Notes under the pieces: generated by a model
Database searches by the model: none
What the model was told of the DNA's origin: nothing
What the model saw: the letters and a program-made list of their open reading frames with translations, nothing else
Part shown: piece by piece, positions 32,876-46,828 of the stretch
Numbering within the stretch: the stretch's first letter is position 1
Layout: each line of letters starts with the position of its first letter
Assembly (NCBI RefSeq): GCF_001544755.2
Contig: NZ_FCOF02000014.1
Coordinates: 1-64,000 of the forward strand
Reading direction: 5' to 3'
DNA: 64,000 bases
Origin: Caballeronia catudaia
GTDB lineage: Bacteria > Pseudomonadota > Gammaproteobacteria > Burkholderiales > Burkholderiaceae
Made by a program: the position numbers and the translations under genes

Positions 32876-33355
32876 GCGGGCGGTTGTAACGCCCGGTTTC
32901 AGATGAAGGCAGGGTAGGGACTATCAAACAGTCCACCGGGAGACTCGGCGTTGTCAGGAACGCGCCCGACGCATGGTAGGCGAACGCGCTACGCGTCCCT
33001 GATGCGTTCAACCAGAGGTGCATATCGAGGGAAGCCATGACGCTGTAAGCGACGTCGGCGGGCATGGCGGCGGACTCAGGTACCTGAACGCGCGGCCCAG
33101 GCCGCGGCGTCTTTCCACTTGTCTCCGCCGCAGCGGTAACTGCCACCGCCGGAAAGTCTTCAACCACTAGGAATGCTCCCAATTATACGGACTGCGATTG
33201 ATTGTTGACTCCAGGCAGTAAAAATTTAGGTCACAATCGAACGGTTTGACCCGAATTACAAAGCTAATTCGTGGCATGTGATCCGATGGGGCGTAGCGCA
33301 ACGCTTCAGTGTAGTCGTCGAGCCAACGGCGCAAGTTCAGCAGGGAGTATTTCGC
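32876..33355. other. 480-base stretch leading into the T6SS island; no convincing gene
   Basis: A minus-strand frame (32766-33182) is open but overlaps the hydrolase and lacks a recognisable domain. From 33180 on the DNA turns AT-rich, as expected of a promoter and of the left boundary of the vgrG island. It contains TTGACT and TTGACC elements but no convincing -10 at proper spacing. CAGGGAG at 33341-33347 is the ribosome site of vgrG. Confidence 0.5.
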
Positions 33356-36019
33356 ATGTCGATGGTGTTACCGAGTCAGGCGTATAGCCTGGTACTCAAG
33401 CCGCAGCCCGGGCTTATCTCTGTGTCGAGCTTCAATGGAAAGCTTGATATTAGTGAGTTATACAAATTCAATATCGAATTCACCAGTCCGGACTCCGATA
33501 TCGGAATGGACGAGGTGGTTGGGCGTCCCGCAGCGTTCACGGTGGAACCCGTGGACCCGGATATGGACTATCTTTCCCGTATGTTTGGCGAGCGGGCAAA
33601 GGACTTCAGCAAGGTGCCCAAGGCGTTTGCGACGCACGGGATCATTGACACGTTCGAAAAACTCGGCACGTCGGCCGACGAGACGCGATATCGCGTCACA
33701 CTCGTGCCGAAAATCGCAGATTTGGCCAGGGTGCGCAAAAGCAGACTGTTTCAGAAACAGTCGGTCGTTGAAATTATCACGGACACCTTGCGCCACTACG
33801 GTTACCGCTTGGGCGTGGACTTCGATTTTCTGAAACTTCGCGGCAAGTATAAGCGGCACGAGTACGTCACTCAATATCACGAGACGACCTTTGCATTCGT
33901 TCAAAGGCTCTGTGCGGAGGAAGGCCTTTGGTTCCGCTTCGAGCAAAAGCGCGATCGCGCCGTGATTATATTCGGGGATGATCTGGAGGCCTATGCTCGT
34001 AAGAAAAGGATTGTGCCATTTCGTCTGTATTCGGGCCTTGAGAGCGCAGGCGCGGAGTCGATCCGTTCGCTCAAAACCATCACCCGGCGCGTGCCTGAAG
34101 CGATCCAGTTGAACGACTACAACCATCGGCAAGCGGATGTTTCGCTGCTGGTGGAAGAGAATGTCGCGCCGGCGGACAAGACCACGGATGGCGTGGATTC
34201 GACTTGGGGTGAACATTACGAAACCCGCGAAGAGGGTAAGGAGATCGCGCGCCGTCGCCATGAAGAGCATCTGGCCACGCAGATCAGCTTTCGCGGACGG
34301 GGCAATCCGTTCTCGCTCGAGATCGGTGAAGCGATGAACCTGGACGTCAACCCGAAGGATGCGCCGCACGGGTTGCTCGTGACGTCCATCCGTCTCGGCG
34401 GCGGTCGGCGCACGTCGTACTGGTGCGCATTCCGGGCGATTCCAGCGGATCGGAGGTGGCGTACGAGCATCAGTTCGATCACGCGACCCAAAATCGAAGG
34501 CATCCTGCCAGCGCGAATCGATTCGCCGGGGAAGTACACCTATTCGTATCTGACCGAGAAAGGGCTGTACGTCACCACGATGCCGTTCGATCTGGACGAA
34601 TGGAGTCCGGGTGGCCGCAGCCGTGCGATTCGGATGATGAAGCCGTATGCGGGGCAGAACTACGGTCACCATTTCCCGCTGATCGACGGGGCGGAAGTTG
34701 CGCTGATCTTCACTGCGCAAGATCCGAATCGGCCCATGATTGCGGGCGCCTTGCATGACAGTCTGAATCCGGACCTCGTCAACAACCTGAATCACACGCG
34801 GAATATCATCCGCACCGCCGCGCTCAATGAGATGCGTATGGAGGACAAGCGGGGATTCGAGCATATCCATCTGACGACGCCATTTCAGGCCAGTGAGCTC
34901 ACTCTCGGGCACATGGTCGATGGGGATCGCAAGGAGAGGGGGCGCGGGGCGGAGCTGCGCAGCGATGAGCACGTCGCCGTCCGAGGGGGGAAGGGCGTAT
35001 TCATTTCTGCGGACGTGCAGAATGCGGCCGGCGGCAAACAGCTTGATATGCAGCCCGCACAAGGCCTGCTCGAACAGGCGTTGCTACAAACTCAGTCCCT
35101 CGTCGTGACTGCCAAGGCGGCGCAGGCCATTGCGGCCGACTATGAGAGTCAGAAGGCGCTGCTTGACGGCACCCTGCGCGAACTGAAGAAGGCGGGCGTA
35201 CTGGTGAGCGCTCCAGCGGGCGTGGGCGTTGCATCGGGTGAGCATCTGCAGCTGACTGCGGCCAAGAACCTCATGGCGACTGCGGGGGGAAGCGCCGATA
35301 TTGGTGTGCTGCGTCGCTTCACAGTCGCAGCGGGCGAAGCGGTGTCGATTTTTGCGCAAAGACTGGGGATGAAGTTGTTCGCAAAGGGCAAGGTGGAAGT
35401 GCAGTCGCAGGGCGATGAGATGGCACTGTCGGCGCTCAAGGACGTGACGATTTCGAGCGTGGACGGTCGGCTCGTACTGTCCGCGGCCAAAGAAGTTTGG
35501 ATTGGTGCGGGCGGGTCGTACATCAAGATCAACGCCAATCGCATCGAGAACGGCACGCCAGGGGACATTCTCGAGAAATGTGCGGTGTGGAGCAAGCCGA
35601 GCGCAGCGTCGGCGCAGATCAGTTCGAAGCTGCCAGACAGCCTGCCGGGCCAGCCGCTTACGATCAATCTGGCCGCATCACCGGCGTCCAGATCGGTTGT
35701 TCCTGCGGGCATGCCGTACACACTTTCTGCTGATGGCAAAGTCGTTAGCAAAGGGTTGATCAGCAAAAACGGTCAGATACCCGTCAACCACATGACCACG
35801 ACAAAGGAATATAGGTTGGAGCTAGCGAACGGCGTGACTTACTCCGTGCCAGTCGCGGAAAACTATCGGGGTAATGCCGCCAACGGCGAACTCGCTAACA
35901 AGGGCTTTCAGTTTCACGAAGGATTGGCTGGCTCAGAGGATGCGGTGGACAGGGCTGTTCACCGCATGCAATACAGCAATCTATTGAATTCAACCGACTC
36001 AGAGAACAGTGATGTCTAG
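33356..36019 (+). CDS. vgrG: T6SS spike protein VgrG
   Basis: An 887-residue VgrG. The N-terminal part (residues about 8-330) is the gp27-like ring (FNGKLDISELYKFNIEF, VQRLCAEEGLWFRFEQ, the KTI block before YNHRQADVSLLVEE). Residues about 390-480 form the gp5 OB-fold (GLYVTTMPFDLDEWSPGGRS, GHHFPLIDGAEVALIFTAQD, PNRPMIAGALHDS). A DUF2345 region follows (DMQPAQGLLEQALLQTQSLV, GVGVASGEHLQLTAAKNLMA), then a C-terminal extension of about 150 residues (LPGQPLTINLAASPASRS onwards) resembling a small beta-sandwich adaptor. VgrG trimers cap the Hcp tube and carry effectors. Its stop overlaps the phospholipase D start by 8 bases, so that effector is its cargo. Confidence 0.95.
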   Translation: MSMVLPSQAYSLVLKPQPGLISVSSFNGKLDISELYKFNIEFTSPDSDIGMDEVVGRPAAFTVEPVDPDMDYLSRMFGERAKDFSKVPKAFATHGIIDTFEKLGTSADETRYRVTLVPKIADLARVRKSRLFQKQSVVEIITDTLRHYGYRLGVDFDFLKLRGKYKRHEYVTQYHETTFAFVQRLCAEEGLWFRFEQKRDRAVIIFGDDLEAYARKKRIVPFRLYSGLESAGAESIRSLKTITRRVPEAIQLNDYNHRQADVSLLVEENVAPADKTTDGVDSTWGEHYETREEGKEIARRRHEEHLATQISFRGRGNPFSLEIGEAMNLDVNPKDAPHGLLVTSIRLGGGRRTSYWCAFRAIPADRRWRTSISSITRPKIEGILPARIDSPGKYTYSYLTEKGLYVTTMPFDLDEWSPGGRSRAIRMMKPYAGQNYGHHFPLIDGAEVALIFTAQDPNRPMIAGALHDSLNPDLVNNLNHTRNIIRTAALNEMRMEDKRGFEHIHLTTPFQASELTLGHMVDGDRKERGRGAELRSDEHVAVRGGKGVFISADVQNAAGGKQLDMQPAQGLLEQALLQTQSLVVTAKAAQAIAADYESQKALLDGTLRELKKAGVLVSAPAGVGVASGEHLQLTAAKNLMATAGGSADIGVLRRFTVAAGEAVSIFAQRLGMKLFAKGKVEVQSQGDEMALSALKDVTISSVDGRLVLSAAKEVWIGAGGSYIKINANRIENGTPGDILEKCAVWSKPSAASAQISSKLPDSLPGQPLTINLAASPASRSVVPAGMPYTLSADGKVVSKGLISKNGQIPVNHMTTTKEYRLELANGVTYSVPVAENYRGNAANGELANKGFQFHEGLAGSEDAVDRAVHRMQYSNLLNSTDSENSDV

Positions 36020-38057
36020 CCCTAGCACAATTGTTACGCCTATTGCTCTGTCTAGTACGAATAGTGCAACGGGCACGTTTCCATGGTTCGTTCAGAAAAC
36101 GGAATACAACCCGGCAGACGCTACCTACCGCCAATTGGTCAACGGGGAGGAAGCATTCGGAGCAGTGTATGACGCCATACTACAAGCCAAGAAAAGTGTC
36201 GACATCATTTGTTGGGGATTTCAACCGTCAATGTATTTCAAGAGGGCGGCTGGAAACTCCGATTACTTGCCTATCGGTTCGTTGCTTGTCAAGAAGGGCG
36301 CAGAAGGGGTGAAGGTGCGGCTCCTTTGCTGGATGGATATCCTTCATCTCGCAGAGATTTCGGAGAACAACATGCCCGGGAACAGTGTGGCGACCGAAGC
36401 GCAACAGCATCTACCTGATGGCGTGGTGAAGCGCATTCCGGTCGTGTCGTCTATGTTCTCGCGACCTTATGAGACGGATGATCAGCTTGATTTCGATCGG
36501 GAGTGGTATCGCCGCGCCAACAAGAATAACGTTACGAAGTCACTCATTTTGCCCCTGGTGTCCAAATCCACGATGGATAGACTGTTCACGGGGCCGATCA
36601 CACCGATGGTCGAATCTTTGCTCGGCAAAGGGAGTTTCAAGAACATCGATCTTGCTACACGAGGATTCGACACAAAAGATCGCGCGGAGATTGCCTTCAG
36701 GACGGCGCTGCTTGGCAAAGACAAACAACGAAGTGCGGGAGGCAAAGCGGAGAATGGCGCTGTAATGGGCGCCTTTGCCACGCATCATCAGAAGATGGTG
36801 TTGGTTGACTACGAGGATCCTGAAAACGCAGTGGGATTCGTCATGGGGCATAACATGCTCGATACCTATTGGGATAAGGACGACCACAGTTGCGTGCGGC
36901 AAAAGCCGAACGTGGGGCGAAATGGCTTGCATCCGAGACATGACATCTCAAGTCGAGTGAGTGGGCCAATCCTGAAGGATCTCAACCATAACTTCTGTGA
37001 GGCGTGGGACGATGCAACCGGCGAGTTTCTCGCTGTCTCGCGGGCGTTGCTCTATAAGAAACTGAAACGACGAACTGACCTTGGTGACCATTCGACGGTT
37101 CGGGCTCAGATTCTTCGAACGCAGTCTCAGAAAGGCAAGCGAGACATTGAACAGCTCTATCTGCAGGCGGCGAACAACGTCTCGAACTATATCTATGTGG
37201 AGAATCAGTATTTTCGGTTCGTGCCGCTAGCGGAAAAAATCAAGACAGCCGTCGCACGCCAAATAACGAAGGGGCGAAGTCCTGATAACCCGATTTATCT
37301 GTTCGTAATTACAAATTCGAATGACGAAGGGATCGGCCCTGGAACAGTCAATACCTATCGGATGTTAGAGGCACTCGGCAGTGCAGATCAAATTCCAGGC
37401 GTTGCGACCCTTGAGCGAGAGGATGCAAGGCAAGCTGATCTGGTGAAACGAGCATCGCAGGCCGACTACGAGGCGAGTCAGCTTGAATGGGCGCTTCAAC
37501 AGGCCGCGGGACGGTTTCCGGAGTCGGTGGTGAATCCTACGCGAGAGCGAGCTAAGGCGGCTCGCGCACAAGCGGCGAAGTTCAAGGAGCAAATGAAGCA
37601 GAAGCCAGGGCCGGTCGTCCCGACGCCTATTCCCGGGCTCAAGATGCATATCTGCACGCTTGTAGCGCCAGATTCGCCGCCAAGTGCATGGGATTACGTG
37701 TATATCCACGCTAAGTTGATGATTGTGGACGACGTCTTCACGACGCAGGGATCGGCGAACTTGAATTCTCGAAGCATGGAAGGAGACAGTGAGTTGAATA
37801 TCTGTCACGAAAACACTGAGGTTACAAGGCCTTTGAGGAAGCGCTTGTGGGAGATGCATACGAAGATGCGTCGAGCAGGTTCAGACGGTGTCGACAGCGA
37901 TCTGAATGGTTCACAGGATGATGCCGGAAAGGCTTTCAGGGCATGGGAAGATATATTAAAAATAAACGAGCGTCGGGAAGCCACCGGTAAGGCTTCACCG
38001 CTTGCGTCGGTAGTAAAGTTCATCAGGTTATCGGCGGATCGGCAGGATAGTGATTGA
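36012..38057 (+). CDS. Phospholipase D-family T6SS effector (Tle5/PldA-like)
   Basis: A 681-residue protein with two HKD motifs: HHQKMVLVDYEDPEN (H259, K261) and YIHAKLMIVDD (H566, K568) followed by GSANLNSRSMEGDSELN. The first domain begins with FGAVYDAILQAKKSVDIICW. Between the motifs lies NNVSNYIYVENQYFRFVPLA, typical of the PldA/Tle5 effectors that hydrolyse phosphatidylethanolamine in the prey inner membrane. No signal peptide, as expected for a T6SS cargo. Codon use and GC are lower than in the core genes (29 of 60 bases G/C at 36481-36540). Flanked by vgrG (8-base overlap) and a lipoprotein (TGATG overlap), the standard effector-immunity order. Confidence 0.93.
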   Translation: MSSPSTIVTPIALSSTNSATGTFPWFVQKTEYNPADATYRQLVNGEEAFGAVYDAILQAKKSVDIICWGFQPSMYFKRAAGNSDYLPIGSLLVKKGAEGVKVRLLCWMDILHLAEISENNMPGNSVATEAQQHLPDGVVKRIPVVSSMFSRPYETDDQLDFDREWYRRANKNNVTKSLILPLVSKSTMDRLFTGPITPMVESLLGKGSFKNIDLATRGFDTKDRAEIAFRTALLGKDKQRSAGGKAENGAVMGAFATHHQKMVLVDYEDPENAVGFVMGHNMLDTYWDKDDHSCVRQKPNVGRNGLHPRHDISSRVSGPILKDLNHNFCEAWDDATGEFLAVSRALLYKKLKRRTDLGDHSTVRAQILRTQSQKGKRDIEQLYLQAANNVSNYIYVENQYFRFVPLAEKIKTAVARQITKGRSPDNPIYLFVITNSNDEGIGPGTVNTYRMLEALGSADQIPGVATLEREDARQADLVKRASQADYEASQLEWALQQAAGRFPESVVNPTRERAKAARAQAAKFKEQMKQKPGPVVPTPIPGLKMHICTLVAPDSPPSAWDYVYIHAKLMIVDDVFTTQGSANLNSRSMEGDSELNICHENTEVTRPLRKRLWEMHTKMRRAGSDGVDSDLNGSQDDAGKAFRAWEDILKINERREATGKASPLASVVKFIRLSADRQDSD

Positions 38058-39355
38058 TGATGAAAAAGACTTTTATCCTATCGGCCGTTGCGACGGTGAT
38101 TTTGTTGAATGCATGTGAGAGGGAGAATTCAGTGTCCGCATCTGTACCTGACCTTAAAGAAGTTCGAGCAAATCTGGCATTCACATGCTCGCATGAAGTA
38201 AATCGTCTACCGTCGTTGGACGGTCGAACCGAGAGCTTGTTTGCGTACGGTCGTTACCTATACAAACAAGATGGGGAGAAGAACTTCAATCAAGTAGCTC
38301 GCTACTACCGGATTGCAGCGGCGCACGATCACTACAAGGCCAATCACAACCTACAGCTATTGATTTCGCAAGGGCTTGCCGATTCTCCAGACGGGGTTGG
38401 TGAAGTCCTTGGTTTGGCGGAACAACTGATCAAGCAAGGTGTACCCGGTGGCTACTACGATATCGGTCACTATCTGGAGCTTGGGTATGGTCTGAAACAA
38501 GATTCTGAGATGTCGCTCCGATATTTCCGGAGAGCGGCGGACTTGGGTAACCCGGATGCCCAGTTTTATGTTGGAGAAAAGCTTTCTCCTCACGACAAAG
38601 CGCCAGAGGTTGCGAAAAAGTTGTATGCCTGCGCCGCTGACCAAGGGAACGGTGAAGCGGCGTTGTCGCTTGGACTGATGCTGCAAATTGGAGATCGTCA
38701 GTTCGTCGATGCAGTTCGATCTCTCCAGATCGGAGTCAAGGCAGGAAATCGAACGTCAGCTTCGATGCTAGCTATGGGCTTTGAGACCGCCTCTGCAGAG
38801 GATGACGCTACGTTCTTCGCTTTGCCTAAGGACCCAGAACGCGTCGGACGTTATCGAAAGATCGCAGACTTTCTAAGTTCAAACGAGAGCCGCAACCCCA
38901 AGGTCCCGGACATCGACAAGATCGTACCGCTTCCACCGGCGAAGCTACCACCGTGGGACGGCACTTTTGAATGGCAAAAGCAGCAGGACGCGGCAGTTCC
39001 TCCGCCGAAGCCATCTGAAGAACTAGTCGAACGGCTGGCCAAGGAAAAGAGTCTCGACCCTGCCACGGGACTGCCGCTATCGGAGCAACAAAAATCCGCT
39101 ATGGCGACGAAGGTCCCATTGAATACCACGGTTCGCGCTATGGAAGTCTGCCCGCAATCCGGCGTTTGGCGAGCCTGCCCGCCGTCGGGTTATGTGGCGA
39201 CATCCGCCGAACGAAGTTTCCAGAAGGGCGAGAAACTTCCGCTTCTCGAGGTCGTGCAACCGCGGGCGATCGGCATGCTCGATAGCATGCTCGGCGTTCG
39301 TCGCATGCACACCGATGGCGTGTGGCGCTTGATTTCATACGGCAACGAAGCATAA
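38057..39355 (+). CDS. Sel1-repeat lipoprotein, probable immunity protein to the phospholipase
   Basis: A 432-residue protein with a lipoprotein signal (LSAVATVILLNACERE, lipidated Cys20), so it should face the periplasm. It contains TPR-like Sel1 repeats (YDIGHYLELGYGLKQDSEMS, LRYFRRAADLGNPDAQFYVG, KKLYACAADQGNGEAALSLG), followed by a Pro-rich domain (DKIVPLPPAKLPPWDGTFEW) that looks like DUF6396, and a conserved C-terminal module ending MHTDGVWRLISYGNEA. Sel1-repeat lipoproteins are the known immunity partners (Tli5) of PldB-type phospholipases. The start (ATG 38057, or 38060) overlaps the phospholipase stop. Composition rises toward the 3' end, hinting at a mosaic gene. Confidence 0.87.
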   Translation: MMKKTFILSAVATVILLNACERENSVSASVPDLKEVRANLAFTCSHEVNRLPSLDGRTESLFAYGRYLYKQDGEKNFNQVARYYRIAAAHDHYKANHNLQLLISQGLADSPDGVGEVLGLAEQLIKQGVPGGYYDIGHYLELGYGLKQDSEMSLRYFRRAADLGNPDAQFYVGEKLSPHDKAPEVAKKLYACAADQGNGEAALSLGLMLQIGDRQFVDAVRSLQIGVKAGNRTSASMLAMGFETASAEDDATFFALPKDPERVGRYRKIADFLSSNESRNPKVPDIDKIVPLPPAKLPPWDGTFEWQKQQDAAVPPPKPSEELVERLAKEKSLDPATGLPLSEQQKSAMATKVPLNTTVRAMEVCPQSGVWRACPPSGYVATSAERSFQKGEKLPLLEVVQPRAIGMLDSMLGVRRMHTDGVWRLISYGNEA

Positions 39356-39441
39356 CCAACGACGAAGTCGCGATGCGTAGTGAGGAAGCTGCGCATCGCC
39401 GGGTCGTACCAGCAGCCTTTCTTAACCCGATAGACGTAACC

Positions 39442-39693
39442 ATGCCCGACCTGATTCTTCTCGGCGACGCCACCGACCACGGTGGCCGCGTCATTACCGC
39501 ATCGACCACGATGATCTACGAAGGGCGTGGCGTCGCCCGCAAGGGCGACCAGGTGACCTGCCCGAAGCATCCCGAGGTCAAGCCGAACCTCATTATCGAT
39601 GGCGACGAAGAGACGGTGGACGAGGGCGTGCCCGTAGCTCGCCACGGCTATCGCGCGATGTGCGGTTGTCACCTCATCTCCAGTTTGCTCTGA
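39442..39693 (+). CDS. PAAR-domain tip protein
   Basis: An 83-residue PAAR protein from the ATG at 39442 (MPDLILLGDATDHGGRVITA). PAAR features are GDATDHGGRVITASTTMIYE, VARKGDQVTCPKHPEVKPN and HGYRAMCGCHLISSL, with His and Cys residues for the tip zinc. It forms the sharp point on the VgrG spike. The frame is open upstream to 39322 and an ATG at 39373 is possible, but the chosen start is where family members begin. It follows the immunity gene and precedes a membrane protein by 8 bases. Confidence 0.9.
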   Translation: MPDLILLGDATDHGGRVITASTTMIYEGRGVARKGDQVTCPKHPEVKPNLIIDGDEETVDEGVPVARHGYRAMCGCHLISSLL

Positions 39694-39701
39694 GTCGCAC
39701 G

Positions 39702-40919
39702 ATGCCGGTCGAGTTGCCTCCCGAGAAGTCCACCGAGGATCGTCCCAAGCCGCCGAACGTCATCGTTTGGCTGGTTCTGCTGCTCGTATTCATGGTGGCG
39801 GGCGTCACGATCACGCTTCTTACCTGGCCGAAGGGCGAACCTACCGGCACGGTCCAATTCTGGATTCGCCTGCTGGGTGTTCCTCCGCTCGCGTGGGCCG
39901 TCGCGCTCGGGTTTCGCCTTCTGTATCGCGATCAGGAGAACGAGCGCCTGGACGCGGAAGAGGAAGTCTTGCGCGAGGACCGCGAGAAAGCGCTTGAATT
40001 CGCGAGCGAGCCGCTCGCGGTGACGGCATTGGCGTATCTGAGCGCAGCGGGTACTCAGAACGAGCACGTAGCCGCCGATGTCGTGAAACTCAAAAGCGTG
40101 ATCGAGGCGCAAGATACGCTGGACGGGAAGCCTGCGATTCGGCACTCCGCGCTTGAATTGGTGAGCAACGACGAGAACCCTTGTCGCTATCGCGTGTGCT
40201 TCAAGCGGGTGATCGCTTCGGTAAATAAGGCAATCGAAGCTGTTCCATTCGATGTGCCTTTCGGTGTGCGCCTGCAACTACCCGCCGATGTCGATCAAAT
40301 GGCATTGCAACAGACTTGGCAAACCTGTTGGGATGAGACGATGAATCGCCCCGCCCATTCCGTGCTCGTTTCGCCCGATCAAGGTGCGATGGCGTTGGAC
40401 GAATGGCTCGATGAGCAGGGCGGCCCGACGCTTGAGAAGTTCCTGCTGTTCGTCGCTGTGCAACTGCATGACTCGCCACCTCAGAACAGCGGCGAAGCGG
40501 CGGTGGCGATGCTGATCGGCTGGCCGCAGCTTGCGTCACGTCGGCGGATCGGATGCATCGGATCGCTGCATCGTCCGGTGTACGTATCAGGCGAGGATAT
40601 CAACGGACCGCTATCCACCGCACTGCAATGGGGCCGTGCGAAACATGACGCCGTCACCGATCTGTGGCAGGCCGGACTCGATAAAGCGGACAAGGCAACT
40701 GTGCTGAATGGTTCATCGGCGCTCGAACTCGGCGTGTCGAAGGCCGATGACTTAAGCGGCATACATGATGTTGATGCCGCGCTCGGCCGAAGCGGCTGTG
40801 CCTCGGCATGGCTTGCGTTGGCGCTGAGTCTCGAACACGCGGCACGGACGCATCGACCACAACTTGTGGCGTGGCGCGATGCATCGCTTCGTTTCTCGAT
40901 CGTTCAACCGGTCGCCTGA
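39702..40919 (+). CDS. T6SS-island membrane protein of unknown function, 405 residues
   Basis: A 405-residue protein with two N-terminal membrane helices (VIVWLVLLLVFMVAGVTITL and WIRLLGVPPLAWAVALGFRL), followed by about 330 soluble residues without a familiar motif. Parts such as RYRVCFKRVIASVNKAIEAV and GRSGCASAWLALALSLEHAA are conserved-looking. The order PAAR / this gene / TssM-like gene, with 8- and 21-base gaps, indicates one transcript and probably a shared membrane complex. I recall such genes as neighbours of orphan vgrG sets in Burkholderiaceae, but I cannot name the family. Confidence 0.75.
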   Translation: MPVELPPEKSTEDRPKPPNVIVWLVLLLVFMVAGVTITLLTWPKGEPTGTVQFWIRLLGVPPLAWAVALGFRLLYRDQENERLDAEEEVLREDREKALEFASEPLAVTALAYLSAAGTQNEHVAADVVKLKSVIEAQDTLDGKPAIRHSALELVSNDENPCRYRVCFKRVIASVNKAIEAVPFDVPFGVRLQLPADVDQMALQQTWQTCWDETMNRPAHSVLVSPDQGAMALDEWLDEQGGPTLEKFLLFVAVQLHDSPPQNSGEAAVAMLIGWPQLASRRRIGCIGSLHRPVYVSGEDINGPLSTALQWGRAKHDAVTDLWQAGLDKADKATVLNGSSALELGVSKADDLSGIHDVDAALGRSGCASAWLALALSLEHAARTHRPQLVAWRDASLRFSIVQPVA

Positions 40920-40940: not shown

Positions 40941-43900
40941 ATGAAGTTTTCAAAAATCTCCGGCTATTGGCTGCTGGCTGGCGCGCTCACTGTGAGCGGC
41001 GCGATCTTTGCCTGGTACAACGGGGACAGCATTGATCCATCACCTTATAAGCGGGTGATGTACGTGTGTGCCATCGGCGCGTTCGCACTCGTGGCGCGAG
41101 CGAATTTCACTGGGGGATGGCGCCGTGTGGCACGTAGTACAGCGCGTGACGGCGCCAAAAAGCATGAACGCGAGGCTTCCGCCCGTGCGAAGTCAACTGA
41201 AGTCACCGCCGCCGATCTCGGGTCATCGCGCCGCGAGAAACTGGAACTGACGCTTCGTGACCGACACGGACGACGTTGGCGCTATCGAGACCGGTGGCTT
41301 GCCATCGTCGGTGATGAGCGGGTGGTCGCACGCATGACGCCCGGTTTGGTTGAGAACGGCTACGCCGTTGCCGGTTCGACTGTCCTCCTTTATGCGAGAC
41401 AGAACGGCGATTCGCTCGACGCAAGCTGGCTCGAACAAATTCGTGAACTTCGGCGGGGGCGTCCCGTTGACGCAATGGTGGCGATCGAACAGTCGAGCGC
41501 TCAAATAACGCGATCGTTCGATGGGCCAGCCATCGCGCAAAAGCTCGCTCGTCACGCCCGTGCGCTCGGGTGGGCCGCGCCCGCATACTTGCTCAACGTG
41601 CTTGATCTAGGGCGCAACGCATCGAGCAGCTTCGACGTGGTCGGTGAGACATGGGGAGAGGCCCGTGTGAATCCGGCAGAACTGAACGGGACGCTGCAAA
41701 CGTTGGCGGCGCGTCTGGCGGATACCGGCGTGGTGCGTCTTGCCGGCAATCCCCGCGATCGCTTCCTTGGAGCGCTTTCGCTGCACATCGAGAGTCTGCG
41801 GGTGGTGCTGGTGGACCTTGTGACGCAGGCGGGAGCATCGCATCTCGCGCGTTGTTCCGTGCAAGGGTTGCTGTTTGCATCGCTTCCGATCGGCAAGACG
41901 CCTGAGGAGTTGGCCCGTCATGCGGATATTAACGCGTCGGCCATCGAGCAGAACGTGCAGCATCCGGTTTGGCAAACCATCGCGGATCACAGCCGCAAGG
42001 TTCATGGCCGGCGAGTGAGCTTCTCGTTGTCGACGATAGCGGCCTGGATCGCGATCGCCGTACTTGCGCTCTGGTCGCTCGGCACCGTCATTTCGGGTGT
42101 ATCGAATCGCGCATCGATGCAGGAAGCGTCGGCGACGCTGTCCAAATTCTCGTCCGTGCAAGACACGACGCAAGCGGTGCTGGCCCTCGAGAGCCTGGAC
42201 AAACAGATCGACACGCTCGAAGTGCATCGCAAGGAAGGTGCGCCGTGGTTCGAGCGTTTCGGGCTGAACCATGACGCCGAGTTGCTGGAAGCGCTCCGAC
42301 CAGGCTACCAGCGCGCAGCCTCGCGCGTGCTGATCGCACCGATTCAGGCCAAACTCGAAGAACGTCTCAATCAACTCGCCTCGCTCTCCGACGCCGAGAT
42401 CGCCAGCGGCGGCAACGCGCAAGTGCAGGCGGCGTACGACACGCTCAAGACGTACCTGATGCTCGCGCACCCTGAGCACGCCGATCCGGCGTTCCTGACC
42501 GCGCAACTGCTGGCGACCAACGCACCGACGCGTCCCAACAATTCGTCCGTGACGCCTGGCACCTGGGAAGACCTACGCCAGCACGCGATCGCGTTCTACG
42601 CGAGCCACCTCAAACGTGACTCCGCACCGGCCATCACGCCGGACGTATCCCTTGTCGCCTCCACGCGTCAGACGATCATCGGCGTGCGCGGCATCCAGAA
42701 CTCGACGGATGAGATCTATCAGCAGATCATCGAGGACGCGAAGCCGAAGTATCCGCCGATCACGCTCGCAACCTTGCTGGGCGACCACCCAAGCCGCGGC
42801 CTATTCAACACGACCGCCACGGTTCCCGGCGTCTTCACGCGCGCGGCATGGGACGAGCGCATCCCGAAGGCGATTGATGAGGCGAGCGAGCAGCGCACGG
42901 TCACGGGCGACTGGGTGCTGTCCGACGCCAAGATCGACAACACCGCACCTTCGACGCTAAAGGCCGAACTGCGTCAGCGCTACTTCGACGACTACGCCCG
43001 CGCGTGGGCCCAGTTCCTGAACAGCATCCGCTGGCAGAACGCATCATCGCTCTCGGGCACGGTCGATCAACTGACGTTGCTCGGCGACCCGCAACGCTCG
43101 CCGCTCGTGGCGCTGATGAACGCGATCGTCTATCAGGCAAGCGCGGGCGCTTCGACGCAGTCGCTCTCGGACAACCTGATCGCGAAGGCACAACACTGGG
43201 CGGGCACGGACGAAAAAGACCCGTCGAAGCAGACTCAAGCCGAACTTGCGCCGCTGGCCGCGGCCTTTGGCCCGATCCTGCGTCTGACGGGCAGCGACGT
43301 GGCCAACACCGCCAAAACACAACAACAGCAGACAGGCGACCTGAGCCTGCCACGCTATCTGGAGCGCGTGACCGCCATGCGCCTCAAAACGCAGCAGATG
43401 ATGGCGAGCGCCGACCCAGACGCCGTGTCGCGCATGGCCGCTCAAGCGATGCTGCAAGGCAAGACCTCGGATATCGCCGACAGCCGCGACTACGCGAGCC
43501 GCCTCGCCGCGAGTCTGGGCGAACAGTGGTCGGGCTTCGGACATCTGTTCGAAGCGCCGCTGGATCAAACGTGGCAGGTCGTCGTACAGCCCGCGTCGTC
43601 GAGCCTGAACGATATCTGGCGCACCTCGGTCGTGGCTGACTGGAACCGCGCCTTCGGCGGACGCTATCCCTTCGCCGATTCAGACAACGATGCGTCGTTG
43701 CCCGACATGGCTCGCTTCATGCGCCCGGACAACGGCCTGATCGCGCAGTTCGTCGCGACGGAACTCGCGGGCGTCGTCAAGCGCCAAGGCGATCGGTGGG
43801 TCGCGGCGCAAGGCACGAATCAAGGCACGCTCGCACTCGATCCGACGTTTCTCGCGGCCTTGAACAAGCTCACGCAAGTCTCGACGGTGCTATTCCCCTC

Positions 43901-44420
43901 AGGCGACGCCCGCGTGCGCTTCGAGCTACGCGGCGTGCCCACGCCGGGCATCACGGACATGAAGTTCATCTCATCGGGCCAGCAATTGCACTACTTCAAC
44001 CAGATGGAGCAATGGATACCGTTCGAATGGCCGGGCCAGGCGCTCGACAACAACGCGCAACTCGAATGGCAGACCGAGCAGGCGGGCCTGCGCTCGACGA
44101 TGTACGCGCAGGGCCGTTTCGCACTGATCCGCCTGCTGGAACGCGCGAAGGTCGAACAGCAGGACAACGCGCGCTATCTGCTGTCGTGGACGCCCGAGCA
44201 GGGCACGAGCCTGCCGCTGTCGGTGCAACTGCGCGCTGAGGCGGGCGCGGGTCCGCTCGACGTGCTGCAGTTGCGGCATTTCGCGCTGCCTGCGCGCATC
44301 TTCGTGACGAGCTCGGCGAAAGATGGATCGAAGCTTTCGGGACCGACACCGCCGCCCCTGCCGCCGGGCGCCATCGCGTCCGCACAAAAGCTCGGCGTAC
44401 CGCTGCCGTCGATGAAGTGA
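40941..44420 (+). CDS. Orphan TssM/IcmF-like inner-membrane protein without P-loop
   Basis: A 1159-residue protein similar to TssM/IcmF (about 1100-1300 residues). Two N-terminal TM helices (YWLLAGALTVSGAIFAWYN; VMYVCAIGAFALVARANF) precede a cytosolic domain and a third TM (STIAAWIAIAVLALWSLGTV, about residue 360). The large periplasmic part has VPGVFTRAAWDERIPKAIDE and TGDWVLSD, and the end has FEWPGQALDNNAQLEWQTEQ then AGLRSTMYAQGRFALIRLLE, all TssM-like. The cytosolic GTPase-type domain keeps its place but has no GxxGxGKT; LAIVGDERVVARMT and GSTVLLYARQNGD stand there instead. TssM anchors the T6SS to the envelope; this copy is probably a paralogue for the vgrG island. GC is normal, higher than in the effector genes. 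Confidence 0.85.
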   Translation: MKFSKISGYWLLAGALTVSGAIFAWYNGDSIDPSPYKRVMYVCAIGAFALVARANFTGGWRRVARSTARDGAKKHEREASARAKSTEVTAADLGSSRREKLELTLRDRHGRRWRYRDRWLAIVGDERVVARMTPGLVENGYAVAGSTVLLYARQNGDSLDASWLEQIRELRRGRPVDAMVAIEQSSAQITRSFDGPAIAQKLARHARALGWAAPAYLLNVLDLGRNASSSFDVVGETWGEARVNPAELNGTLQTLAARLADTGVVRLAGNPRDRFLGALSLHIESLRVVLVDLVTQAGASHLARCSVQGLLFASLPIGKTPEELARHADINASAIEQNVQHPVWQTIADHSRKVHGRRVSFSLSTIAAWIAIAVLALWSLGTVISGVSNRASMQEASATLSKFSSVQDTTQAVLALESLDKQIDTLEVHRKEGAPWFERFGLNHDAELLEALRPGYQRAASRVLIAPIQAKLEERLNQLASLSDAEIASGGNAQVQAAYDTLKTYLMLAHPEHADPAFLTAQLLATNAPTRPNNSSVTPGTWEDLRQHAIAFYASHLKRDSAPAITPDVSLVASTRQTIIGVRGIQNSTDEIYQQIIEDAKPKYPPITLATLLGDHPSRGLFNTTATVPGVFTRAAWDERIPKAIDEASEQRTVTGDWVLSDAKIDNTAPSTLKAELRQRYFDDYARAWAQFLNSIRWQNASSLSGTVDQLTLLGDPQRSPLVALMNAIVYQASAGASTQSLSDNLIAKAQHWAGTDEKDPSKQTQAELAPLAAAFGPILRLTGSDVANTAKTQQQQTGDLSLPRYLERVTAMRLKTQQMMASADPDAVSRMAAQAMLQGKTSDIADSRDYASRLAASLGEQWSGFGHLFEAPLDQTWQVVVQPASSSLNDIWRTSVVADWNRAFGGRYPFADSDNDASLPDMARFMRPDNGLIAQFVATELAGVVKRQGDRWVAAQGTNQGTLALDPTFLAALNKLTQVSTVLFPSGDARVRFELRGVPTPGITDMKFISSGQQLHYFNQMEQWIPFEWPGQALDNNAQLEWQTEQAGLRSTMYAQGRFALIRLLERAKVEQQDNARYLLSWTPEQGTSLPLSVQLRAEAGAGPLDVLQLRHFALPARIFVTSSAKDGSKLSGPTPPPLPPGAIASAQKLGVPLPSMK

Positions 44421-44449: not shown

Positions 44450-44746
44450 ATGAAGAACGATAAAACGCCCGGCGTCGAACAGAATGCCGACCAGCATCCC
44501 GATCCCGTGCTGCACTACCACGAAGTCGAGATGCGCTACCTGCGCGAGGCGGGGCGCGAGTTCACACGCGCGCATCCGGACCGGGCGCGCATGCTCAATC
44601 TCGACCGCGTGGGTGACCGTGATCCATACGTCGAACGTCGCCTGTATCTGGGGTTGCCGACCGCCTTCGCGATGCACCTGGCGCTCACGCGTCAAATCCA
44701 CACGATCGAATCGCCGCGCAGCAAGACATGGCGGGCGCCGCTATGA
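44450..44746 (+). pseudogene. N-terminal stub of T6SS baseplate protein TssF
   Basis: A 98-residue frame. Residues 20-62 (LHYHEVEMRYLREAGREFTR, then AHPDRARMLNLDRVGDRDPY, VER) match the N-terminus of TssF, which is normally about 600 residues and begins with a similar YYExELxYLRxxGxEFAxxxP pattern. After VER the similarity ends and the frame runs to a stop in unrelated residues (IHTIESPRSKTWRAPL). Either a truncated pseudogene left by recombination or a tiny orphan. It lies between the TssM-like gene and the zinc-module gene. Confidence 0.65.
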
Positions 44747-44776
44747 AACCGAGTGAGATACGAAGTTGGGCAAGTC

Positions 44777-46828
44777 ATGAATAGAGATCCGCGTTGTGAA
44801 CCCAATCCGCACCTGGCCAGGCTTCACGCCCGGGCCACGGAGCTTGGCTGGCGATGCCTCTCCCATGAATGGGCAGGCCGCGCAGCGTTCTACGTCTTCG
44901 AATGTGCGCGTGGGCATCGCAGCGAGCGCGTTGCCGCGGCTTTTCTGGATAGGATGCCGCGATGCGTTGCTTGCCGTGACGATGCAATTCGCGTGCGCTG
45001 CCTGGAAAACGTGGCCGCGCATGGCGGCGTCATGCTGGGTCCTTTCAAAGGACTGAGCGAGCGCCACCGCCTGCGTTGCGCGAACGGTCACGAGTGGGAG
45101 ACACTCGGTATCCATACGAGCAACGGGAAATGGTGTCCGGTATGCGCTTGTGAGCAAAGGTCACTGGCTCGGCGTCGCAGCGATGGTTTGGAAAAACTGC
45201 AAGCGGTGGCCGCTTCAAGAGGCGGACGCTGTCTGTCCGATACCTACACGACGGGGCATGACCACTATCTGTTCGAATGCGCGAAGGGGCATCGATGGGA
45301 GGCGGCGGGTAATGCGGTCATCCGAAGGACATGGTGCCGTCGATGCGCCGACGCCGAAGTTGGGCTTCGGGCGGCGAAAGCGCTCACTTGTCGATACGGC
45401 CTCGAGAGGCTACACGATGCGGCACGAAAGCATGGTGGCGAATGTCTATCGAGTGAATACACCAACCAGCGGGCGAAATACCAGTTTCGGTGTGCGGCTG
45501 GCCACGAGTGGACGCAGACGGCCAATGCGATCTGGCAGGGCTCGTGGTGCGCACGCTGCGCGCATTTTGCACAGCGCACGCCCATCGAAACGCTGCAGGA
45601 GATCGCCGAGGCGCGTGGGGGAAAATGTCTTTCGTCGCAGCGAGATGATGTCAAAGACAAGCTGACGTGGCAGTGCGGGATGGGGCATGTGTGGCAGGCC
45701 AATCCCAACAATGTGACGAGCGGGCAGTGGTGCCCCAGGTGCGCCATTCTCGAACGGGGACAGGACAACGCGCAGCGCTACGCCTCGGCGCGTGCGCGGG
45801 CGAGCGCCGACTCCTCGCATCCGCACCTCAGGCGACTTCAGGAAATTGCAGCGGAGCTGGGTTGGCGTTGCGTCTCGCAAGGATGGGTGGGCGAGAAGAC
45901 GCAATACGATTTCGAGTGTGCGAAGGGACACCGTTTGAAACGGCACGCGAGCCATGTAATGCGCGGCACGAAGAGCGTCCCCCGATGCGAGGAATGCCAG
46001 GCCGATGAAATCAGGGCGCGTTGGCTCGACACTGTTCATGCGCGCGGCGGAGTCTTGCTTGGCGCCTTTACCGGGCTCAGCGAAAAGTATCGCCTGCGCT
46101 GTGCGAGCGGGCATGAATGGGAGACGCTTGGGACCGTCATTCGTCAAGGCAGTTGGTGTCCTCAATGCGCACAAGAGGCGAGCAGGCAGGCCCAGCTCAA
46201 GACGGGTGGTCTGGCGCGATTACAAGCGATGGCGGTGGACAAAGGGGGACGGTGTCTGGCCGACGTGTACATGGGAACCATGGCTTTTTATCCGTTCGAA
46301 TGCGCGCGCGGGCATCGCTGGGAGGCGGCGGGGCACACCATCGTGCAAGGCAGTTGGTGTGCCAAGTGCGCGCACATGGAGCACGGCGATCGGGTTAGGG
46401 AAGCGCTCTTGTTCAAGGACGGTTTGCAGCGCCTTCAGGAGGCCGCGCGTCAGCGCAACGGTGAATGCCTGTCCACCGTCTATGACGGCTCTCAAAAGCA
46501 GTATGCATTTCGCTGCGCTCAAGGACATGAATGGACAACCAGCGCGGCACGTATATGGCAAGGTACGTGGTGTAAGCGTTGCGCCGATCTGGGACGCCGG
46601 ACCCTCACCATTGAACGATTGCGTGAGATTGCGAAATCACGCGGCGGGGAGTGTCTTTCAACCGAGGTGAATCACAGCAGTGAAAAGCTCGAATGGAAGT
46701 GCCATCTGGCACACGTCTGGAAGGCATTGCCGCACAACATCAATAAAGGCAGATGGTGTCCGAACTGCGCCGTTCTCGAGCGAACCAAAAATCTTCTGAA
46801 GCGTAAGCGCTACGATTTCGAGGGATAG
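44777..46828 (+). CDS. Tandem zinc-module repeat protein, ten Cys3His modules
   Basis: A 683-residue protein made almost wholly of ten modules of about 60-70 residues. Each contains a helix (RLQEAARQRNGECLS), a C-x3-H (FECAKGH, LRCANGH, FRCAAGH and so on) and a C-x2-C (WCPRC, WCAKC, WCKRC), giving a Cys3His site of treble-clef type. Modules 1-5 (44810-45823, 338 codons) and 6-10 (45824-46825, 334 codons) match one to one, so a five-module block was duplicated. Only the last module has AH for GH. Single modules resemble zinc-ribbon domains of prokaryotic endonucleases and DUF4379, but no nuclease motif is visible. No signal or TM. Start ATG 44777; a GTG at 44753 is possible. Function unknown, maybe nucleic-acid binding or T6SS-linked. 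Confidence 0.85.
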   Translation: MNRDPRCEPNPHLARLHARATELGWRCLSHEWAGRAAFYVFECARGHRSERVAAAFLDRMPRCVACRDDAIRVRCLENVAAHGGVMLGPFKGLSERHRLRCANGHEWETLGIHTSNGKWCPVCACEQRSLARRRSDGLEKLQAVAASRGGRCLSDTYTTGHDHYLFECAKGHRWEAAGNAVIRRTWCRRCADAEVGLRAAKALTCRYGLERLHDAARKHGGECLSSEYTNQRAKYQFRCAAGHEWTQTANAIWQGSWCARCAHFAQRTPIETLQEIAEARGGKCLSSQRDDVKDKLTWQCGMGHVWQANPNNVTSGQWCPRCAILERGQDNAQRYASARARASADSSHPHLRRLQEIAAELGWRCVSQGWVGEKTQYDFECAKGHRLKRHASHVMRGTKSVPRCEECQADEIRARWLDTVHARGGVLLGAFTGLSEKYRLRCASGHEWETLGTVIRQGSWCPQCAQEASRQAQLKTGGLARLQAMAVDKGGRCLADVYMGTMAFYPFECARGHRWEAAGHTIVQGSWCAKCAHMEHGDRVREALLFKDGLQRLQEAARQRNGECLSTVYDGSQKQYAFRCAQGHEWTTSAARIWQGTWCKRCADLGRRTLTIERLREIAKSRGGECLSTEVNHSSEKLEWKCHLAHVWKALPHNINKGRWCPNCAVLERTKNLLKRKRYDFEG

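Follow-up and report, generated by a model that had tools for sequence, protein, structure and literature searches.

What does a bacterial protein that consists only of ten zinc modules do at the end of a run of T6SS genes? The question is raised by an open reading frame (ORF) of Caballeronia catudaia, in the 64,000 nucleotides of contig NZ_FCOF02000014.1 that were analysed here (the window). The original prediction, made from the letters of the DNA alone, named nucleic acid binding, zinc storage and T6SS cargo as its possible roles.

Ten zinc modules in one reading frame

The ORF at 44777..46828 on the forward strand encodes 683 aa from its ATG, or 691 aa from a GTG at 44753. It contains ten C-x3-H and ten C-x2-C motifs, that is, ten Cys-x3-His/Cys-x2-Cys modules of ~57 residues with 40 of 40 ligands present, and only linkers and short tails lie outside them. 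The motif letters predicted for the ten modules were recovered exactly, and C, H, C and C are the only invariant columns when the modules are aligned. Positional profiles, made from nine five-module blocks with both halves of the window protein among them, give the module order 1-2-3-4-5-1-2-3-4-5, in agreement with the claim that modules 6-10 mirror modules 1-5 in order.

44777..46828, forward strand: ten-module zinc array protein (ORF, motifs, Pfam DUF4379)
44777..45817, forward strand: block A, module types 1-2-3-4-5 (positional profiles)
44804..44980, forward strand: module 1, type 1 (this and all modules below by motifs and module alignment)
44981..45148, forward strand: module 2, type 2
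45179..45349, forward strand: module 3, type 3
45392..45562, forward strand: module 4, type 4
45575..45745, forward strand: module 5, type 5
45818..46825, forward strand: block B, module types 1-2-3-4-5 (positional profiles; AlphaFold2 model)
45818..46003, forward strand: module 6, type 1
46004..46171, forward strand: module 7, type 2
46202..46372, forward strand: module 8, type 3
46415..46585, forward strand: module 9, type 4
46601..46771, forward strand: module 10, type 5

GC3 is 65.8% in the array, 76.5% in tssM, 69.6% in vgrG, 58.4% in the phospholipase D-like (PLD) gene and 83.1% in the next gene; the base composition of the array is mildly accessory-like, which is not decisive.

AlphaFold2, run on block B only with 11 sequences, gave a mean pLDDT of 85.7 and a pTM of 0.39, so that the modules are confidently modelled and their mutual placement is uncertain. 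All five modules in the model have the same strand-strand-helix pattern with the ligands at the same places: the first Cys at the end of a strand or after it, the His before the next strand, and the Cys-x2-Cys at the start of the helix. These are the positions of a treble clef, and each module is predicted to be a treble-clef zinc finger. At the first three junctions the CxxC helix continues unbroken into the next module. A Foldseek search of the PDB returned no match at E<=0.001, which is a weak test for a flexible chain, and no convincing PDB relative was found by sequence, the module profile giving two matches at E 0.44 and 1.1. Against viral models, Foldseek gave 195 matches at E<=0.001, and among the 50 matches listed are treble clef zinc finger, zinc-ribbon and CapR homology domain entries as well as restriction endonuclease, homing endonuclease and VSR homing endonuclease entries.

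Kinship, spread and history of the array family

In a large class of homing endonucleases from phages and bacteria, DNA is read by treble-clef modules of the DUF4379/CapR type. The window protein matches PF14311 (DUF4379, probable treble clef zinc finger) in 7 stretches with 52.3 bits against a gathering cut-off of 24.5. Its best PHROG matches, over long stretches, are phrog_559 ('HNH endonuclease', 2e-75) and phrog_681 ('endonuclease', 3e-54), and for the array protein these three scores exclude chance. PF21817, the CapR homology domain, scores 21 bits, just under its cut-off of 24.2, and the protein is therefore not counted as a member of that family. Although the best PHROG matches carry endonuclease names, the window protein itself consists of modules, linkers and short tails. 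Pfam reports no nuclease family in it, and a Vsr-like nuclease profile built from L040-L042 has no match there, as expected from the earlier statement that it lacks a nuclease motif. It thus has the repeated CapR/DUF4379-type modules of a homing endonuclease, and no nuclease domain was found in the same protein.

The original remark that similar modules occur on endonucleases is borne out by the DUF4379, phrog_559 and phrog_681 kinship and also by seven relatives (L040, L041, L042, L158, L159, L160 and L169) in which a Vsr-like nuclease lies within the array or follows it. All seven fall outside the 46 family loci considered below, and the nuclease profile, which covers the Vsr-like kind alone, has no match in the ORFs of those 46 loci. 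In L163 (2016-3281), five zinc modules are followed by a stretch that resembles, by eye, a GIY-YIG/T5orf172-type domain. A role as a defence-system protein was rejected: a search of PADLOC-DB for anti-phage defence gave 0 families at E<=1 for the window protein.

Three known systems resemble the array in part. First, passages of PMC10448857 present CapR, encoded by the satellite PLE of V. cholerae, as a repressor of ICP1 capsid expression and as a transcription repressor that evolved from the zinc-finger domains of homing endonucleases. CapR is thus, like the window protein, a nuclease-less zinc-finger protein of homing-endonuclease descent. Its motif is given there as CxxC...CxC, whereas that of the window protein is CxxxH...CxxC; CapR belongs to a phage satellite, whereas window-type arrays lie in bacterial toxin-delivery loci, and the window protein has ten modules in a 5+5 order. 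Second, T5orf172 (GIY-YIG) homing endonucleases carry repeated CapR/DUF723 zinc-finger domains, and zinc-finger repeats duplicate by recombination between repeats, according to the same passages (which name a third zinc-finger family DUF4397 in running text but 4379 in a legend). These repeated, recombining and duplicating fingers are like the window array, but Pfam finds no T5orf172 domain in the window protein, and the window family keeps its five-module order across genera. Third, sections of PMC12350094 describe three to five ~60-aa CapR/DUF4379/DUF723-related domains preceding the EDxHD/Vsr-like nuclease in phage group II introns. Such arrays of ~60-aa modules are also seen in the window protein, but the EDxHD/Vsr-type enzymes end in a nuclease domain and none was found in the window protein. 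These sections also report thousands of UniProt matches to CapR-like and nuclease profiles, and part of another paper reports a large duplicated DUF4379 family in fungi (PMC11291939).

The five-module 1-2-3-4-5 family was found in 34 of 398 Burkholderiaceae genomes and 5 of 25 genera with a profile of nine blocks (E<=1e-60). In the rest of the class there was no match at E<=1e-50 in 368 other sampled genomes, the window's own genome being the sole match among 369. Within the genus, a match at E<=1e-10 is present in 43 of 58 genomes, in many cases covering just one or a few modules, and plasmid records from Cupriavidus, Burkholderia, Paraburkholderia and Pseudomonas, among others, also contain relatives. 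The module types specific to each position are found again in different genera. The original prediction had treated a protein made only of ten such modules as unfamiliar; this is weakened, since nuclease-less arrays of 5-8 modules recur in Burkholderiaceae. Judged by its modules, the window protein is an extreme member of this nuclease-less family, with the most modules of any nuclease-free array examined. The metal ligands are kept in 380 of 380 positions across 19 five-module blocks, and 8 of 10 close pairs gave a finite dS; their dN/dS, in reading frames taken from stop to stop, is 0.11-0.21, and the other two pairs are synonymous-saturated. The array family is under purifying selection. 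Some copies are split or have internal stops.

The two halves of the window protein had been explained by in-frame duplication of one block. The repeat order fits this explanation, but a simple recent duplication is not supported in view of the 51% protein identity (322 aligned residues) and 63% DNA identity of the halves and by the pairing of half B with another block. A tree built from 28 five-module blocks places half B as the sister of L052 (support 96/93), a block from a genome (G011) of another species of the same genus, with half A outside that pair (91/81). Blocks A and B were therefore separate lineages before the split of half B and L052, which means either that tandem genes fused or that the duplication is old; synonymous sites between the halves are saturated. 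Fusion offers a plain route to ten modules, because contig C74 of the same genome carries two separate array genes in tandem (5 + 6 modules) with a four-base overlap, and old duplication is the alternative. Rearranged arrays occur elsewhere: L127 reads 1-2-3-4-1-2-3-5 and L126 reads 1-2-3-2-3-4-5, while L050, cut by a contig end, reads 1-2-3-1.

Association with toxin-delivery loci and insertion as a single gene

The array was originally placed directly after T6SS genes, and tssM and a tssF remnant do lie immediately 5' to it. The gene order before it is VgrG, PLD, Sel1/DUF6396, PAAR, 419-aa protein, TssM and TssF remnant:

33278..36019, forward strand: VgrG
36009..38057, forward strand: phospholipase D-like protein, candidate T6SS effector by its position
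38054..39355, forward strand: Sel1/DUF6396 protein beside the PLD gene, candidate immunity protein by its position
39322..39693, forward strand: PAAR protein
39660..40919, forward strand: 419-aa protein with no Pfam match and a hydrophobic N-terminal region
40941..44420, forward strand: tssM (IcmF family), 1159 aa
44450..44746, forward strand: tssF remnant, 98 aa, with two internal deletions relative to the C74 copy, and with both gene ends and the open frame kept
44747..44776, forward strand: scar, in which homology to the C74 tssF/tssG overlap stops at ~44761

On C74, taken as the reference, the order is tssM (two ORFs), tssF, tssG, tssJ, array, array. The tssF remnant of the window keeps the original C-terminus, and neither the body of tssG nor any of tssJ precedes the start of the array. 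The array is intact although tssF has been gutted and tssG and tssJ have been lost. The observation of the tssF remnant bears on 44450-44746 of the window and on L049 (11607-13457). Several related loci have a relative of the 419-aa protein (39660-40919) in the vicinity of tssM or PAAR. The same genome carries tssF on seven further contigs (C70, C117, C94, C37, C74, C62 and C50, the last with two pieces), and thus has many T6SS clusters or part clusters.

T6SS and TPS toxin loci swap cassettes and need restraint. The neighbourhood survey for a recurrent partner, proposed in the original prediction, found that genes of these systems recur: toxin-delivery genes lie within 8 kb of the array at 26 of 46 family loci, 19 with T6SS and 7 with two-partner secretion (TPS) genes, against 1 of 20 random 17-kb stretches. 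The scan covered up to 8 kb on each side with 11 marker proteins at the 46 loci behind 50 profile-search places; these proteins were mostly drawn from the 46 loci themselves, which biases the scan toward finding them there. The control is one draw of 20 stretches from array-bearing contigs, and one of them (L176) starts ~6 kb downstream of an array. Fisher's test gives p = 5e-5 with near copies counted as they stand, and such p-values are too small because the 46 loci include near copies (L132 and L133 are 95% identical over 10 kb, and L109 and L110 have similar arrays and lengths). From 324 VgrG and 143 TpsB-like matches in 34 genomes (~256 Mb), VgrG is expected in ~2.3% and a TpsB-like protein in ~1.0% of neighbourhoods; they were seen in 10/46 and 7/46.

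The 20 loci lacking toxin-delivery neighbours comprise 11 of one genus, group g3 (taken as Cupriavidus), three cut by a contig start (L053, L054 and L055) and six others (L118, L119, L120, L123, L140 and L141). At 8 of the 11 g3 loci the neighbours belong to two families, one tested member of each being a tyrosine-type integrase and a DUF6884 protein, respectively. A gene of the ~300-aa integrase family and one of the DUF6884 family lie near the array in L112, L113, L114, L115, L116, L122, L126 and L142, and an HU gene adjoins the array in pMOL28 and in a C. pauculus plasmid. Six g3 representatives form one clade in the block tree. On the 28 blocks of this tree the T6SS label changes 3 times, the TPS label 3 times and the three labels together 4 times, with L120 set as TPS for its PPIase remnant. 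A genetic link to T6SS genes, as a T6SS effector or cargo would have, is thus present, and so are links to TPS and, in Cupriavidus, to integrases.

Further samples were similar in part. T6SS or TPS genes accompany 8 of 14 further Caballeronia array loci, hand-picked from the genus matches, and 6 of 8 plasmid regions (a count that excludes L046, L149 and L153; L147 and L135 represent a single plasmid stretch). Four more plasmid regions that match less strongly (Cytobacillus, Vibrio, Paraburkholderia 22B1P and Acinetobacter) have no annotated T6SS or TPS gene. Plasmids of B. cenocepacia, B. anthina and P. frederiksbergensis carry VgrG, EagR (DUF1795), Rhs, a small or DUF1629 gene and the array, with other genes between VgrG and EagR in the first two. 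Among 21 loci on viral contigs, only L155 (TpsA, TpsB) and L161 (VgrG, EagR, Rhs) have such genes; their arrays have no Vsr-like nuclease, and the four nuclease-bearing arrays of the viral set have no toxin-delivery neighbour. L155 and L161 are IMG/VR contigs labelled viral and are possibly bacterial stretches mistaken for viral. At 6 of the 26 loci (L128, L129, L130, L131, L135 and L137) the nearest marker is opposite in direction, so that array and marker do not share an operon at these loci.

Insertion of the array as a single-gene unit is shown at a tssJ/tssJ site. Genomes G009 and G057 have tssJ followed by a second tssJ with no array and gaps of 53 and 103 bases, and in G054, G017 and G019 a three-module array gene (238, 244 and 238 codons, respectively) lies between the two. 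Its ATG overlaps the tssJ stop, and it ends 21, 20 and 81 bases before the second tssJ. G017, G054 and G019 (L199, L203 and L202) thus have two different tssJ genes in one T6SS cluster, the second following the first with or without an array gene between them. Among 16 locus pairs compared, four (L137/L139, L137/L138, L124/L125 and L132/L141) have no segment but the array in common. Upstream homology stops inside the array in L107/L127 and at the array stop in L132/L136, and other pairs, such as L132/L133 and L118/L119, share both flanks.

Function of the array

Any account of function starts from the anatomy of the array, its kinship, the nuclease not found, purifying selection, the locus association and the single-gene insertion at one site, all of them direct observations. 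On balance, we read the array as a nuclease-less, domesticated DNA-binding protein that travels as a mobile single-gene cassette of toxin-delivery loci and may serve as a regulator like CapR. The parts of this reading differ in strength. That the array binds DNA is quite likely from its kinship and predicted fold. That it acts as a local regulator is a more tentative proposal, suggested by the analogy of CapR, purifying selection, the recurrent module order and the retention of the gene beside a ruined tss cluster. A Burkholderiaceae lineage maintains the 1-2-3-4-5 array with no cutter attached; in many cases the array forms a single-gene cassette next to a T6SS/TPS operon or at its 3' end, and in the window copy two five-module blocks are joined into ten modules. 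On the regulator proposal, the array would stretch over a single long DNA site close to its own locus and, as its most likely mode of action, block or tune local transcription, as the domesticated CapR repressor does.

Several observations weigh on this proposal. No convincing operator shared by T6SS and TPS loci was found with exact k-mers in the intergenic DNA of 4 T6SS and 7 TPS loci chosen for the search: shared k-mers exceed five mononucleotide shuffles at k=10-13 (13-mers, 6 vs 0-2) and number 2 vs 0-2 at k=14, and among those listed none occurs in more than 3 loci. The presence of one array family in very different operons is likewise not predicted by a locus-specific repressor and counts against it. 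So do the 20 of 46 loci that lack toxin-delivery neighbours and the failure of the PDB searches to give a convincing relative.

The array as the only common segment in some pairs also fits a passenger without a role for the host. This main rival, which shares most of its evidence with the regulator reading, is less probable but serious: the array, a homing-endonuclease relic or satellite that is not autonomous, would recombine into toxin loci with no particular host benefit, using its own DNA binding or a cutter supplied in trans. The sole sharing of the array in four of the 16 pairs and the end of homology in or at it in two, the one-ORF insertion between tssJ genes and the split or interrupted copies all suit a passenger, as does its sporadic spread (34/398 Burkholderiaceae, 0/368 other genomes of the class, and plasmid copies). 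Homing endonucleases also stand at exchange boundaries in phages, as passages of PMC10448857 describe. However, purifying selection with full ligand retention requires either a benefit or continual homing, the Vsr-like nuclease profile has no match in the ORFs of the 46 loci, and the preference for toxin-delivery loci is left unexplained by a passenger alone.

Export of the array as T6SS or TPS cargo, which might for instance bind nucleic acid inside cells or between them, is improbable. The gene does occupy a position typical of cargo, close to VgrG/PAAR/Rhs or behind TpsB, but Pfam reports no MIX, PAAR, Rhs, VgrG or other delivery domain in it, the same family follows unrelated export systems, and the Cupriavidus loci have no such system within 8 kb. 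The array also remains intact beside the gutted tssF and the lost tssG/tssJ, and in L148, L150 and L151 it comes after a putative immunity gene. Thus, among the roles originally offered, nucleic acid binding is the best reading in view of the endonuclease-type module kinship, and T6SS cargo is weakened by the missing delivery domain. Similarly improbable is an RNA-binding or scaffold protein of the toxin operon that does not read DNA: treble clefs have many roles, but the near kin of the array are found on DNA-cutting homing enzymes, and CapR, of the same broad kind, represses transcription according to passages of PMC10448857. Zinc storage finds no support here, since a conserved fold that differs by position and carries a single site in every ~60 residues does not suggest a store, and a cognate immunity protein is unlikely with one family beside unrelated toxins (PLD, Rhs, TPS).

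The family connects T6SS and TPS loci alike with the DNA-reading portion of a selfish gene, and its recurrent five-module order makes it a natural candidate for a modular DNA-recognition code. A wider conjecture, speculative at present, is that nuclease-free arrays recur as a third component alongside contact-dependent toxin systems. They would be mobile DNA-binding cassettes, lodged within T6SS/Rhs and TPS operons or at their ends, which may control these operons or steer the exchange of toxin cassettes, and which may be retargeted by gain, loss or duplication of modules (3 to 8, here 10). The portions of the open-access literature on zinc ribbons or treble clefs with polymorphic toxins, Rhs or VgrG that were covered, PMC3482391 among them, contain no report of such arrays in T6SS/TPS loci.

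A small protein family of 151-197 aa is encoded next to the array at five loci, with TpsB present at four, and its tested member (from L117) has no Pfam match. Its genes lie at L047 5552-6010, L048 7263-7718, L108 1942-2400, L117 7080-7547 and L120 8003-8596.
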